DNA of 64,000 nucleotides from contig NZ_CP011125.1 of the NCBI RefSeq assembly GCF_000737325.1, positions 2,852,001 through 2,916,000 on the forward strand, given 5' to 3'. The DNA is from Sandaracinus amylolyticus. GTDB lineage: Bacteria > Myxococcota_A > Polyangia > Polyangiales > Sandaracinaceae. The position numbers and the translations under genes are program-made. Position 1 is the first letter of the stretch. The number at the start of each line of letters is the position of its first letter. This document shows positions 15,164 through 21,059 of the stretch, piece after piece. The notes under the pieces are model-generated. The model worked only from the letters and a program-made list of their open reading frames with translations. It searched no databases and had not been told where the DNA came from.

Positions 15164-17275
15164 ATGGCAAGCAAGAGCACCAACAACCCGCCGGTCCAGC
15201 CGACCGGCACGATCAGCACGCCGTCGGCCGTGATCGCGATCCTGATCGCGTTCGTCGGCGGCCTGATGATCGGCAACCTCACCGGCCGCGGGAGCGGCGC
15301 CGCCAGCGAGGAGATCGAGATGGCGGCCGGCGATCGCGCCGGCGGTGGTGGTGAGCCGGGCGCGGGCCCGGCCGTGCAGGACGACGTCGAGCGCTTCCGC
15401 GCGCTCGCGCCCGACAACGCGCCGCAGCGCGGCCCGGACGACGCCCTCGTCACGATCGTGATGTGGTCGGACTTCCAGTGCCCGTTCTGCTCGCGCGTCG
15501 AGCCGACGATCGACCGCGTGATCGAGACCTTCGGCAACGACGTGCGCGTCGTGTGGCGCAACAACGCGCTGCCGTTCCACCAGAACGCGATGCCCGCCGC
15601 GGAGGCCGCGATGGAGGCCTACGCGCAGCGTGGCGACGAGGGCTTCTGGCGCATGCACAACACGCTGTTCGAGAACCAGCGCGCCCTCGAGCGCGCGAAC
15701 CTCGAGCAGTACGCGCAGCAGCAGGGCCTCGACATGACCCGCTTCCGCGCGGCGCTCGACAACCACACGCACCAGGCGGGCATCCAGGCGGACATGCAGG
15801 CCGCCAACTCGCTCGGCGCGCGTGGCACGCCCGCGTTCTTCATCAACGGCCGCCAGCTCATGGGCGCGCAGCCCTACGAGCAGTTCGAGACCGTCATCCG
15901 CGACGAGATCCAGCGCGCGAACCGCGCGATCTCGGGCGGCACGCCGCGCGCGGGCTACTACGCCGCGCTGATGCGTGGCGCGCGCACCGCGCCCGCCGCG
16001 GCCGAGGGTGAGGCCGCCGCCGCGAAGGCGCCGCCGCGCCGTCCGCAGCCGGACCCGAACGCGGTCTACCGCGTGCCGGTCGGCGACTCGCCGACGAAGG
16101 GCCCGAACGACGCGCTCGTCACGATCGTGATCGTCAGCGAGTTCCAGTGCCCGTTCTGCAACCGCGTCCGCCCCACGCTCGACCAGATCGAGGAGCGCTA
16201 CGGGCGTGACGTGCGCTTCGTGTTCAAGCACAACCCGCTGCCCTTCCACGACAACGCGATGCCCGCCGCCGAGGCCGCGGTCGAGGCGTACCGCCAGCGC
16301 GGCAACGACGCGTTCTGGCGCATCCACGACCTGATGTTCGAGAACCAGCAGGCGCTCGGCCGCGAGCAGCTCGAAGGCTACGCGCAGCAGGTCGGCCTCG
16401 ACATGGCGCGCTTCCGCCGCGCGCTCGACGAGCACACGCACCGCGCGACGATCGAGGCGGACCAGACGCTCGCCCGCCAGCTCGGCGCGAGCGGCACGCC
16501 GTCGTTCTTCATCAACGGCCGCAACCTGCGCGGCGCGCAGCCGTTCGAGGCGTTCCAGCAGGTGATCGACGCCGAGCTCGCGCGTGCGCGTGAGCGCGTG
16601 TCGGCGGGCACCCCGCGCGCCGGCGTGTACGAGGCGACGATCGCGAACGGCGCGACCAGCCCGGTCATGCTGCCGATGCCCGAGGGCGGCGGCGAAGAGG
16701 CCGCGGCGGCGCCCGACGCCGATCGCGTCTACGACATCGCGGTCCCGCGCAACGCGCCGACCCGCGGTGCGGCGAACGCGCCGGTCACGATCCAGATCTT
16801 CAGCGACTTCCAGTGCCCCTTCTGCTCGCGCGTCGGTCCGACGATCGAGCAGGTGATGGAGCAGTACGAGGGTCGCGTGCGCCTCGTCTGGCGCAACTAC
16901 CCGCTGCCCTTCCACCAGCAGGCGGGCCCGGCGGCCGAGGCGGCGATGGAAGTGTTCGCGCAGCGCGGCTCGGAAGCGTTCTGGCAGTTCCACAACACGC
17001 TGTTCGAGAACCAGCGCGCGCTCTCGCGTGAGGATCTCGAGCGCTACGCGACGCAGGTCCCCGGCCTCGACATGGCGCGCTTCCGCCGCGCGCTCGACGA
17101 GCACACGCACCAGGCCGCCGTGCAGGCGGACATGGAGGCGGTGCGTCGCGCGGGCGCGGAGATCGGCACCCCGTCGTTCTTCATCAACGGCCGCCTGCTC
17201 CAGGGCGCGCAGCCGTTCCCCGCGTTCCAGCAGGCGATCGACCGCGCGCTCCGCGAAGCGCCCGCGCGTCGCTGA
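15164..17275 (+). CDS. membrane-anchored protein with three DsbA-like thioredoxin domains
   Basis: The 703-aa protein has one N-terminal membrane segment (about residues 21-38), a Gly/Ala-rich linker, and three repeated DsbA/thioredoxin-fold units of about 222 residues. Active sites are CPFC at residues 106-109, 329-332 and 551-554. Each unit has the cis-Pro loop GTPAFFING or GTPSFFING, and adjacent parts such as LPFHQNAMPAAEAAMEAY recur with small changes. It should act in the periplasm as a thiol oxidoreductase or disulfide carrier. No DsbB-like partner is adjacent. An AGAGGA Shine-Dalgarno and strong terminator-like hairpins bracket it as a single unit. Confidence 0.93.
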   Translation: MASKSTNNPPVQPTGTISTPSAVIAILIAFVGGLMIGNLTGRGSGAASEEIEMAAGDRAGGGGEPGAGPAVQDDVERFRALAPDNAPQRGPDDALVTIVMWSDFQCPFCSRVEPTIDRVIETFGNDVRVVWRNNALPFHQNAMPAAEAAMEAYAQRGDEGFWRMHNTLFENQRALERANLEQYAQQQGLDMTRFRAALDNHTHQAGIQADMQAANSLGARGTPAFFINGRQLMGAQPYEQFETVIRDEIQRANRAISGGTPRAGYYAALMRGARTAPAAAEGEAAAAKAPPRRPQPDPNAVYRVPVGDSPTKGPNDALVTIVIVSEFQCPFCNRVRPTLDQIEERYGRDVRFVFKHNPLPFHDNAMPAAEAAVEAYRQRGNDAFWRIHDLMFENQQALGREQLEGYAQQVGLDMARFRRALDEHTHRATIEADQTLARQLGASGTPSFFINGRNLRGAQPFEAFQQVIDAELARARERVSAGTPRAGVYEATIANGATSPVMLPMPEGGGEEAAAAPDADRVYDIAVPRNAPTRGAANAPVTIQIFSDFQCPFCSRVGPTIEQVMEQYEGRVRLVWRNYPLPFHQQAGPAAEAAMEVFAQRGSEAFWQFHNTLFENQRALSREDLERYATQVPGLDMARFRRALDEHTHQAAVQADMEAVRRAGAEIGTPSFFINGRLLQGAQPFPAFQQAIDRALREAPARR

Positions 17276-17281
17276 TCTCTC

Positions 17282-17308
17282 GGAAGGGGTCATGGGATGA
17301 CCCCTTCC
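17282..17308. terminator. strong hairpin after the triple-DsbA gene
   Basis: GGAAGGGGTCAT and ATGACCCCTTCC form a perfect 12-bp stem around a GGG loop, six bases past the stop codon. A C-run follows instead of a U-tract, so it may act as an RNA-stabilising 3' end or a rho-assisted terminator. Confidence 0.7.
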
Positions 17309-18734: not shown

Positions 18735-19649
18735 ATGGCCAAGGCCGCCGCCGCGCGTACTCCCGAGAACCAGCCCGTCGTCGAAGAGCTCCACTTCAAG
18801 AGCGAGAGCGCGTTCTTGTGCCTCCTCCTGAACCGGCGCACCGGGCTCATCCGCGTGATCGACTTCCGCTCGGGCGCGCTGCCGGCGAAGCGCCTCTTCA
18901 TCCAGAACGTCGCGCGGCGCGAGGGCGTCGAGAAGGTGATCCTCCTCGTCGAGAAGGACGAGGTGTCGAGCTGGACGCGCGTCGGCTTCGTCCGCGAGGG
19001 CACGATCCCCGGCTTCTACAAGCGCAGCGACGGCCACCTCGTGGGCTGCGTGATCGGCGAGAAGACGGCGTCGGTCGAGGTCGGCGACGAGGGCCAGAAG
19101 CTCGCGGAGCGCACCGTCAACGCGGGCAAGAAGAACGCGCGCGAGGTCCCCGAGACGCTGCCGATGGTGAGCGCGGTGATCGGCGACGAAGAGGACGCGC
19201 TCAAGGCGCGCGACGAGGTCTGGCGCAAGGGCCAGGGGCTCTCGGGCTTCGACGCGTTCGGTCGCGACGCGGCGCGCTACTTCGTCGAGGCGACGGCGAA
19301 GAAGGGCCGCGCGAACTGGCTCTCGGCGGAGTTCCAGGACTGCTTCGGGCACTCGCTCGTCGAGGTGCTGCGCGCGCCGACGGACGACCTCGACGTGCTC
19401 GCGCTGACGGGCGGCCTGCGCTTCCTGTGCGACGACCTGAAGGAGCGCGGCATCGTCAGCGCGTTCGGGTTCGCGCCGAGCGACGACATCGGGCTCGCGA
19501 CCGCGTACGTCGCGGCGGGCTTCCGCAAGACGGGCCTGCTCGCGAGCGGGATCCAGATCGCGGGCGGCGGTCCGAAGGGCACCTCGGAGCGCAAGGACGC
19601 GATCCTCTGGACGCGCAAGCTCGCGAACCCGGGCGGCGACGAGGAGTGA
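18735..19649 (+). CDS. AblB-related GNAT-like acetyltransferase
   Basis: The 304-aa protein resembles beta-lysine acetyltransferase (AblB) at both ends. The N-terminal lobe has KRLFIQNVARREGVEKVILLV and the GFVREGTIPGFYK segment. The C-terminal lobe has an acyl-CoA-binding-like region (NAFGFAPS-type turn, LATAYVAAGFRKTGLLASG) ending ILWTRKL. AblB acetylates beta-lysine to the osmolyte N-epsilon-acetyl-beta-lysine, but no lysine 2,3-aminomutase (AblA) gene is in view, so the substrate may differ. About 90 residues between the lobes have no clear match. It has its own upstream terminator-bounded region and a purine-rich ribosome site. Confidence 0.55.
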   Translation: MAKAAAARTPENQPVVEELHFKSESAFLCLLLNRRTGLIRVIDFRSGALPAKRLFIQNVARREGVEKVILLVEKDEVSSWTRVGFVREGTIPGFYKRSDGHLVGCVIGEKTASVEVGDEGQKLAERTVNAGKKNAREVPETLPMVSAVIGDEEDALKARDEVWRKGQGLSGFDAFGRDAARYFVEATAKKGRANWLSAEFQDCFGHSLVEVLRAPTDDLDVLALTGGLRFLCDDLKERGIVSAFGFAPSDDIGLATAYVAAGFRKTGLLASGIQIAGGGPKGTSERKDAILWTRKLANPGGDEE

Positions 19650-19780
19650 CGCGATCTCGACGCGCGTGAGCGCGTCGGGAAAGAAGGTTGGCTCTCGCGC
19701 GTTCTCGCGAACGGCGGTACGGTTCTCCGCGATGCTCGCTCTCGAGGGAGGAGCGAACATCCACGGAGAGAACGCCGGCG

Positions 19781-20197
19781 ATGAGGACGCGCGAGGACAT
19801 CGAAGCCTACCTTCTCCGCTCGAACCACCCGCACCGCGAGCTCGCCGAGGACACTTGGCTCGTCGGTGACGCGTCGGGCTCGCGCGAGAACATCGTCGTA
19901 CGCATGGCGAACGGCATCTGCCTGTTCCGCCTCAAGGTCATCGACCTCGCGGCGATCGATCCGAAGAAGTGCGGCGACTTCTATCTCGAGCTGCTGCGTC
20001 TCAACGCGACCGAGATGGTCCACGGCGCGTACGGCGCATCGGACGGCATGGTGTTGCTCACGGCGAGCCACCTGCTCGAGAACCTCGACTTCAACGAGTT
20101 CGCCGGCGTCGTGGAGGAGTTCGTCCTCGCGATGGCGAACCATCACGAGCGCATCGCGAAGTATCGCCGCAACGACGATCGCCGCGCCGACGTCTGA
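19781..20197 (+). CDS. YbjN family protein
   Basis: The 138-aa protein has the YbjN/type III-chaperone-like pattern: an N-terminal helix (TREDIEAYLLRSN), alternating beta strands (TWLVGDASGSRENIVVRMANGICLFRLKV) and a C-terminal helix with LENLDFNEFAGVVEEFVLA. Such proteins are stress-linked regulators or chaperones of uncertain mechanism. The start at 19781 follows GGAGAGAA. The upstream in-frame ATG at 19688 adds only Arg/Ser-rich filler. PspA follows 61 bases later, so both may answer envelope stress together. Confidence 0.75.
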   Translation: MRTREDIEAYLLRSNHPHRELAEDTWLVGDASGSRENIVVRMANGICLFRLKVIDLAAIDPKKCGDFYLELLRLNATEMVHGAYGASDGMVLLTASHLLENLDFNEFAGVVEEFVLAMANHHERIAKYRRNDDRRADV

Positions 20198-20258
20198 TCT
20201 CGATCTCGTTCACCCGACGCTGAGCTCACTCCGACGCCTGAGGGGAGACAACACGAAG

Positions 20259-21059
20259 ATGGGTTTCTTCGGCCGCCTCGCGACGCTGATCAAGAGCAAT
20301 CTGAACGACCTGATCTCCAAGTCGGAAGATCCGGAGAAGATGCTCAACCAGATCATCCTCGACATGAACGCGCAGCTCGTCGAGGCGAAGAAGCAGGTCG
20401 CGATCGCGATCGCCGACGAGAAGCGACTGCACCGCCAATGGCAGAGCGAGAAAGCCGTCTCGGACGAGTGGCACAAAAAGGCGATGCTCGCGGTGCGCGC
20501 GGGTGACGACGCCCTCGCGAAGGAAGCGCTCCAGCGGAAGAAGGAGCACGAGCAAATCGCGAAGGCGTTCGAGGATCAGTGGAAGAAGCAGAACATCGCG
20601 GTCAACCAGGTGAAGGCCGCGCTGCAGGCGCTGAACAACAAGATCGGTGAGGCGAAGCGCAAGAAGGACGTCCTCATCGCGCGCAACAACCGCGCGAAGG
20701 CGATGCAGGAGATCCAGAAGACGATGGGGTCCCTCCAGGACACCAGCGCCTTCGATGCGTTCTCGCGGATGGAGCAGAAGATCGAGCAGGCCGAGGCGGA
20801 GGCCGAGGCCGCGGGCGAGCTCCACGAGGAGTACTCGGGCGACGTGCTGAAGAACAAGTTCGCGCGGCTCGAGCAGACGGCGGGCGCGGACGCGGACCTC
20901 GAGGAGCTGAAGCGCGAGATGGGGCTGATGCCGGCGCGCGAGGCGGCGGTGCCGGCGCGTGTCGAGGCGGAGGAAGCGCCGATGGACGAGGCCGAGATGG
21001 CCGAGCTCGAGGCCGCGCTCGAAGAGCTCAAGAAGCGCGAGGAGATGGCGAAGGGCTGA
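20259..21059 (+). CDS. pspA: PspA/IM30 family membrane-stress protein
   Basis: The 266-aa protein is a nearly continuous coiled coil opening with the amphipathic helix MGFFGRLATLIKSNLNDLI, then KSEDPEKMLNQIILDM, the classic PspA/Vipp1 start. Long Lys/Glu/Gln-rich helices follow, and a C-terminal acidic helix (EEAPMDEAEMAELEAAL). This ESCRT-III-like family polymerises on the inner membrane and protects it under stress. The Shine-Dalgarno GAGGGGAGA lies just upstream. No pspF, pspB or pspC is adjacent; the YbjN gene precedes it and a terminator hairpin follows. Confidence 0.93.
   Translation: MGFFGRLATLIKSNLNDLISKSEDPEKMLNQIILDMNAQLVEAKKQVAIAIADEKRLHRQWQSEKAVSDEWHKKAMLAVRAGDDALAKEALQRKKEHEQIAKAFEDQWKKQNIAVNQVKAALQALNNKIGEAKRKKDVLIARNNRAKAMQEIQKTMGSLQDTSAFDAFSRMEQKIEQAEAEAEAAGELHEEYSGDVLKNKFARLEQTAGADADLEELKREMGLMPAREAAVPARVEAEEAPMDEAEMAELEAALEELKKREEMAKG

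Follow-up and report, generated by a model that had tools for sequence, protein, structure and literature searches.

The gene considered here raises the question of what a single membrane-anchored bacterial chain would do with three DsbA domains. To our knowledge, the bacterial disulfide isomerases known so far bring two or three heads together by oligomerisation, and three DsbA domains fused on an anchor provide a natural test of whether the closeness of heads turns a DsbA into an isomerase. What is new here is a membrane-anchored chain that unites three DsbA domains, together with relatives that have UGA at two or three sites. We suggest, with a probability of roughly 0.45, that the protein achieves covalently what the DsbA-like isomerases ScsC, alpha-DsbA2 and BcfH achieve by trimerisation, and that it is reduced through DsbD.

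Within the window, by which we mean the whole 64,000-nucleotide stretch of DNA from the soil myxobacterium Sandaracinus amylolyticus that was analysed, the gene is an uninterrupted open reading frame of 703 codons plus a stop, with the following parts:

15164-17275, plus strand: gene for the 703-residue membrane-anchored triple-DsbA protein; open frame, three Pfam Thioredoxin_4 and DSBA stretches, full-length same-genus orthologues at 99% and 79% identity
15227-15283, plus strand: single N-terminal transmembrane anchor, residues ~22-40; the sole strongly hydrophobic stretch, modelled as a helix at 22-33 with low confidence
15401-15913, plus strand: DsbA domain 1, residues 80-250; Pfam, pLDDT mostly >90
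15479-15490, plus strand: active site 1, CPFC, residues 106-109; first Cys in 43/43 aligned rows, second in 41/43
15827-15832, plus strand: Thr-Pro of cis-Pro loop 1, residues 222-223; Thr and Pro both in 43/43 rows
15914-16069, plus strand: linker 1-2, a helical tail and then a disordered Ala/Pro-rich stretch; residues 282-289 at pLDDT <50, 22-64 residues long among homologues
16070-16582, plus strand: DsbA domain 2, residues 303-473; Pfam, pLDDT mostly >90
16148-16159, plus strand: active site 2, CPFC, residues 329-332; first Cys in 43/43 rows, second in 40/43
16496-16501, plus strand: Thr-Pro of cis-Pro loop 2, residues 445-446; Thr and Pro both in 43/43 rows
16583-16735, plus strand: linker 2-3; pLDDT ~70 around residues 501-520, 22-53 residues long among homologues
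16736-17254, plus strand: DsbA domain 3, residues 525-697; Pfam, pLDDT mostly >90
16814-16825, plus strand: active site 3, CPFC, residues 551-554; both Cys in 43/43 rows
17168-17173, plus strand: Thr-Pro of cis-Pro loop 3, residues 669-670; Pro in 43/43 rows, Thr in 38/43

The Pfam models DSBA and Thioredoxin_4 (PF01323 and PF13462) score 213.3 and 267 bits against curated cut-offs of 25.6 and 23.2, each in three stretches, and in a profile search of the source genome every domain singly exceeds the Pfam DsbA-fold cut-off. At the protein level the three domains are mutually 61-63% identical. Hydropathy indicates one transmembrane segment, the best 19-residue window scoring 2.24 at residues ~22-40 versus 1.26 beyond residue 60, and the only cysteines in the protein are the six of the CPFC motifs, so that it has no lipoprotein signal. 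A structure predicted by AlphaFold2 from 43 aligned sequences (mean pLDDT 89.2; 570 of 703 residues at 90 or above; pTM 0.61) confidently models three firm DsbA folds joined by loosely placed, flexible linkers. The first-pass annotation had described three CPFC domains, each with a cis-Pro loop, behind one anchor, and the frame, the Pfam matches, the hydropathy and the Thr-Pro pairs all bear this out, the loops being assigned from the Thr-Pro sequence and not from geometry. It had also named an assembly duplication error as the finding that would undo this description. Such an error is excluded because a separate same-genus assembly (G002) encodes the full-length protein at 99% identity, because homologues exist elsewhere (79% identity in G001), and because the repeats, compared as DNA with the longest repeat's reference copy, are only 68-76% identical to it.

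Judged from sequence, three fused DsbA domains on a membrane anchor are a widespread design in the phylum. Matches at 1e-20 were present in 55 of 56 related genomes, the source genome included, and matches at 1e-60, some spanning fewer than three domains, in 142 of 282 genomes sampled across the phylum. From 205 loci (L005-L209) we obtained 179 distinct homologous genes; three-domain genes number 125, against 30 with two domains, 15 with four and 9 with one, a distribution biased to three by the use of three-domain queries. Homologues with two or four domains, for which the first-pass annotation had advised a search, thus exist, and with four-, two- and one-domain relatives present, three domains are not obligatory. 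Selection of the 79 named loci relied on CPFC and FFINGR patterns, with ranking according to the match to a three-domain query, and counts drawn from them consequently favour CPFC and three domains; carriers among them include Sorangium cellulosum, Corallococcus sicarius, Hyalangium versicolor, Nannocystis pusilla and Anaeromyxobacter oryzae, and Anaerolineae carry the protein outside the phylum. Among the 125 three-domain genes the N-terminus is transmembrane-like in 93, lipoprotein-like in 26, without a hydrophobic stretch in 4 and incomplete in 2, a count in which the window's own gene was scored from a partial copy (L042) as having no hydrophobic stretch. A plasmid search returned 2646 matching records, all below 60% identity; among the 10 matches listed, the matched stretch of ~510-690 bases corresponds to one domain matched by several query domains, and by that overlapping count 11 records cover at least 80% of the query. 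The titles and abstract openings returned by literature searches on tandem, fused or multiple-domain DsbA, including in myxobacteria, contain no description of such a protein.

All three sites look catalytic on the evidence of their conservation. In an alignment of 43 proteins, made up of the window protein and 42 of the 79 named loci picked because their frame is unbroken, no row lacks the first Cys in any domain and the second occurs in 41, 40 and 43 rows for domains 1, 2 and 3, while the cis-loop Pro is invariant in each domain and the Thr before it occurs in 43, 43 and 38 of the rows. Of the 125 three-domain genes, 115 have CxxC or UxxC in every domain. A pattern-based table of the motifs in all 179 genes, in which some odd motifs may be misassigned, comprises 504 domains: 478 CxxC, 8 UxxC, 13 Cxx[S/T] and 5 unread. 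In all 13 Cxx[S/T] domains the lost Cys is the second, and genes are found in which it is missing at each of the domain positions. Two three-domain relatives, both from genomes with SelB above cut-off, have lost it more than once: L026 (G029) reads CPFC, CPFS, CPFS, and L117 (G163) reads CPFS, CPFT, CPFS, with every second Cys gone. CXXS mutants of PDI retain isomerase activity and lose oxidase activity.

The earlier suggestion that all three domains may be active is well supported by this per-site conservation and, in addition, by relatives in which UGA stands at the first Cys. Such UGA codons occur at a motif in 3 of the 179 genes, and at 8 of 8 sites they occupy the position of the first Cys. 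One genome (G235), which belongs to the phylum but not to the window's order, has two of these genes: L107 (L082:738-2840, minus strand) encodes a 700-residue three-domain protein with an in-frame UGA in all of its motifs (FQUPFC, FQUPFC, FQUPYC), and L113 has UGA in 3 of 3 domains. The third gene, L115 of G201, has it in 2 of 3. SelB is above cut-off in both genomes; for tRNA-Sec, G235 gives a strong match of 76.1 bits, while the 48.3 bits of G201 are borderline and do not exceed the 50.4 bits of the window's genome. Some 21-24 bases 3' of the UGAs lies a loop with GGUC or GUC, closed by complementary arms. Folding predicts the full SECIS-like hairpin at 7 of the 8 sites, another fold winning in domain 1 of L115, and folding z-scores, calculated against mononucleotide shuffles only, range from -1.5 to -3.7 over all 8. 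At six Cys control sites found by pattern in L110, L116 and L108, reading by eye revealed no unbroken stem of at least 6 pairs over such a loop, and one of the six folds strongly with a different loop (z -4.0). Taken together, L107, L113 and L115 likely encode multi-selenocysteine proteins, whose Cys-to-Sec swaps in several domains would allow each head's role to be tested.

For the source organism itself, selenocysteine is not supported: the gene contains no internal stop, SelB scores 167 bits against a cut-off of 242, and tRNA-Sec, at 50.4 bits, is barely over its threshold of 47. Apparent in-frame stops among the first 30 orthologues turned out to be terminal stop codons or the product of wrong-strand reading. 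Selenocysteine in DsbA-like proteins and prokaryotic proteins with several selenocysteines are both already known. In passages of PMC13188914, a DsbG-like family (NF041057) and DsbA-like families are listed with '1', apparently the number of Sec residues, and other prokaryotic selenoprotein families with 2 or 3 in the same apparent column. A passage of PMC1794560 lists a Sec-containing DsbA-like protein for the myxobacterium Anaeromyxobacter dehalogenans, which shares with the present relatives both the phylum and the use of Sec by a DsbA-like protein; L107, L113 and L115 have two or three UGA across three domains, whereas that passage gives no such numbers. The review passages on selenoproteins contain no tandem DsbA in which two or three heads carry Sec, and a literature search on selenoproteins and selenocysteine in Myxococcota returned no match.

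Whether the three domains reflect recent duplication or old divergence, a comparison proposed with the original annotation, has a different answer at different depths. For the window's order, 3 of 30 loci were excluded from the tree because the pattern had missed a domain, and 19 of the remaining 27 were taken in. Domains 1, 2 and 3 each occupy one side of a branch among these 19 loci (support 88, 82 and 98), and therefore a single triplication older than the loci compared is indicated within the order, where recent duplication is ruled out by the same position-specific branches. No single shared triplication accounts for a broader sample, in which 22 of the 25 three-domain genes requested were used: position labels require 14 changes, and one clade per position is rejected by the approximately unbiased test (p-AU 0.0013 for domain 1, 0.0001 for domain 2 and 0.0018 for domain 3). 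In two Anaerolineae genes all six domains group together in one clade (100/100), and therefore the triplet either arose separately there or was homogenised. The rejected position clades and the separate Anaerolineae triplet together imply a repeated origin of three-domain chains, or homogenisation.

Comparison with known systems gives mixed signals. In the PDB, Corynebacterium DsbA/TsdA come closest in sequence. By fold, Bacillus BdbD ranks first (Z 22.9, rmsd 1.9, 178 aligned), effectively level with the trimeric alpha-DsbA2 of Wolbachia (Z 22.1, rmsd 3.0, 182 aligned). The Corynebacterium and Bacillus proteins, unlike the window protein, have one domain; they are membrane-tethered oxidases, linked to VKOR or BdbC. 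The other trimeric DsbA-like isomerases follow closely, with BcfH of Salmonella at Z 21.2 (rmsd 2.2, 179 aligned) and PmScsC of Proteus at Z 21.1 (rmsd 2.1, 170 aligned), so that the model matches this group, to which Caulobacter ScsC also belongs, at Z ~20-22; the likeness extends to the DsbA fold, the CXXC motif and the gathering of three heads. Eukaryotic proteins with several thioredoxin-fold domains per chain are more distant parallels. ERp46/TXNDC5 is an ER-resident PDI with three plain thioredoxin-type domains, and UGGT has tandem DsbA-like/thioredoxin-like domains without a redox motif; in the fold search UGGT aligned over ~570 columns with an rmsd of 18-20 and a TM-score of ~0.12 on its own length, and for this reason is not superposed as one whole.

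PmScsC is described as a trimeric isomerase whose isomerase activity is lost without its trimerisation domain (PMC5524982), and for alpha-DsbA2 the mere closeness of three DsbA-like domains has been suggested to suffice (PMC8900818). ScsC is kept reduced by the DsbD-like ScsB, and Caulobacter ScsC has a Thr-cisPro (passages of PMC8900818), as do, in sequence, the Thr-Pro loops of the window protein. PmScsC and alpha-DsbA2 are homotrimers of one-domain chains joined N-terminally (PMC5524982, PMC6450060), whereas the window protein is one anchored three-domain chain, whose N-terminus consists of a hydrophobic helix and a disordered stretch and not of a trimerisation region on a one-domain chain. 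The best NCBIfam match of each domain is NF041057, the Rcas_1661 (seleno)lipoprotein family (108.9, 101.7 and 107.0 bits); its cut-off of 190 bits is reached only by the three-domain sum (309.6) and by no single domain, which leaves the protein outside that family. NF041057 is a one-domain family whose name includes selenocysteine forms, entered as 'DsbG-like protein, UxxC, 1' in a table of PMC13188914. It is also a lipoprotein family, in contrast to the window protein, which has no lipoprotein Cys, though 26 of the 125 three-domain relatives are lipoprotein-like.

Candidate redox partners were sought in the source genome, a single contig of 10,327,335 bases. A whole-genome profile search found no DsbB match and only one VKOR match (L043, C1:10084189), 7.2 Mb off along the contig, in a gene that carries a C-terminal thioredoxin-like domain with CPAC. 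The original remark that no DsbB or VKOR adjoins the gene held up in these genome searches and in a motif scan of both window strands, in which this gene's three sites were accompanied by one other match, taken as unrelated. Judged by reading, the eight DSBA-family matches in the genome include one other exported DsbA-like protein, a lipoprotein (L001:1078-1980, near C1:4006785) with extra N-terminal cysteines including CRTC, and four more proteins that are HCCA-isomerase/FrnE-like and without export signals. A DsbD of 456 residues with a C-terminal WCQAC thioredoxin domain is encoded 28 kb upstream. DsbD_TM is present in 25 of 25 genomes searched, the source genome included; such presence is weak evidence for coupling because DsbD/CcdA serves other pathways too.

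Across the phylum, 36 of the 142 genomes matching at 1e-60, a definition of carriage under which three domains are not always spanned, have no VKOR match. Searches of 17 of these 36 (completeness 92-100%) found DsbB in 0 of 17 and DsbD_TM in 17 of 17; in 12 of the 17, all from the window's order, the match spans all three domains, and in the other 5 about two. The expectation that DsbB or VKOR always accompanies a DsbA does not hold in these genomes, which pose the question of how disulfides form there. At 7 of the 79 named loci (L133, L135, L136, L139, L166, L175 and L195) the multi-DsbA gene or its two-domain neighbour is followed, after 0-190 bases and on the same strand, by a TlpA/ResA-like gene, a raw count obtained with a simple custom gene caller. 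Four of the seven (L133, L135, L136 and L139) encode four-domain proteins and so represent one type, and in L166 and L175 the TlpA/ResA-like gene sits behind a two-domain neighbour.

We propose that the window protein, tethered to the membrane and facing the periplasm, is a thiol-disulfide enzyme whose single chain bears three catalytic DsbA-fold heads; these would act in parallel on one substrate as a putative disulfide isomerase or reductase. Fusion would replace trimerisation in gathering the three heads, and electrons would be supplied by an inner-membrane DsbD/CcdA protein, passing in some species via the neighbouring TlpA/ResA-like carrier, as ScsB serves ScsC. This isomerase or reductase role is favoured because of the three heads on one chain, the DsbD_TM in all 25 genomes searched, the carriers without VKOR and DsbB matches, the TlpA neighbours and the loss of the second Cys alone. 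Against it, the oxidase affiliation of the nearest PDB sequences and of the top fold, together with the VKOR of the source genome, points to an oxidase, whose three heads would each give disulfides to secreted proteins, like ERp46, and be re-oxidised by VKOR or an unnamed oxidant. We consider such an oxidase a serious contender, with the odds nonetheless against it. It would suit a genome with a VKOR, no DsbB match and one other exported DsbA-like protein, and VKOR is somewhat commoner in genomes with the protein than in those without (106/142 versus 88/140; Fisher p 0.04, ignoring kinship), a weak enrichment. It sits poorly with the absence of a DsbB match from all 17 VKOR-less genomes tested, with the TlpA/ResA-like neighbours and with a VKOR gene that already has a thioredoxin-like domain of its own, and a domain that has lost its second Cys, as 13 of 504 have, would be disabled as a donor site. 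The first-pass annotation had proposed that three heads raise local thiol-oxidase capacity; a gain in capacity fits the flexible linkers and identical motifs, whereas the oxidase part is made doubtful by the DsbB-less, DsbD_TM-bearing VKOR-less genomes and the TlpA neighbours.

The same annotation had offered an electron relay. In such a scheme electrons would pass along the chain from domain to domain, the three being set at different redox potentials. The domains have been kept distinct within the order, since each position forms its own clade there, as a relay would lead one to expect; yet nothing specific favours one when CPFC and Thr-Pro are the same in all three sites of the window protein, when the second Cys is lost at each position in some genes and at all three in L117, and when position-faithful clades are rejected in the wider set, and we regard it as very improbable. 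Hardly more probable is the handling of copper or another metal by the cysteine pairs, with disulfide exchange secondary. Copper(I) binding by the related ScsC of Caulobacter and Salmonella, described in a passage of PMC8900818, speaks for it, but inspection by eye of the largest shared gene clusters recognised no metal-resistance gene, and the selenocysteine and CPFS variants suggest thiol exchange.

Extended from the window protein to its relatives, the isomerase reading would define a class that reached three heads by domain fusion, perhaps repeatedly (in Myxococcota and separately in Anaerolineae), and that belongs to the reductive DsbD/TlpA branch, with neither DsbB nor VKOR involved, some of its members being double- or triple-Sec proteins with one SECIS per UGA-bearing domain. 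In this full form we think the generalisation rather unlikely.

Two features of the surrounding DNA may be added. A downstream block (window 18735-21056), kept in part of 21 loci, encodes a protein without a Pfam match (9 loci), a CesT_Tir-like protein and PspA/IM30 (7 loci), none of which gives a redox hint. A promoter and terminator scan found no promoter-like site and three terminator-like sites, all on the opposite strand; just past the stop codon, at window 17282-17308, lies an inverted repeat, GGAAGGGGTCAT, three bases, ATGACCCCTTCC, which lacks a T run and is otherwise terminator-like.
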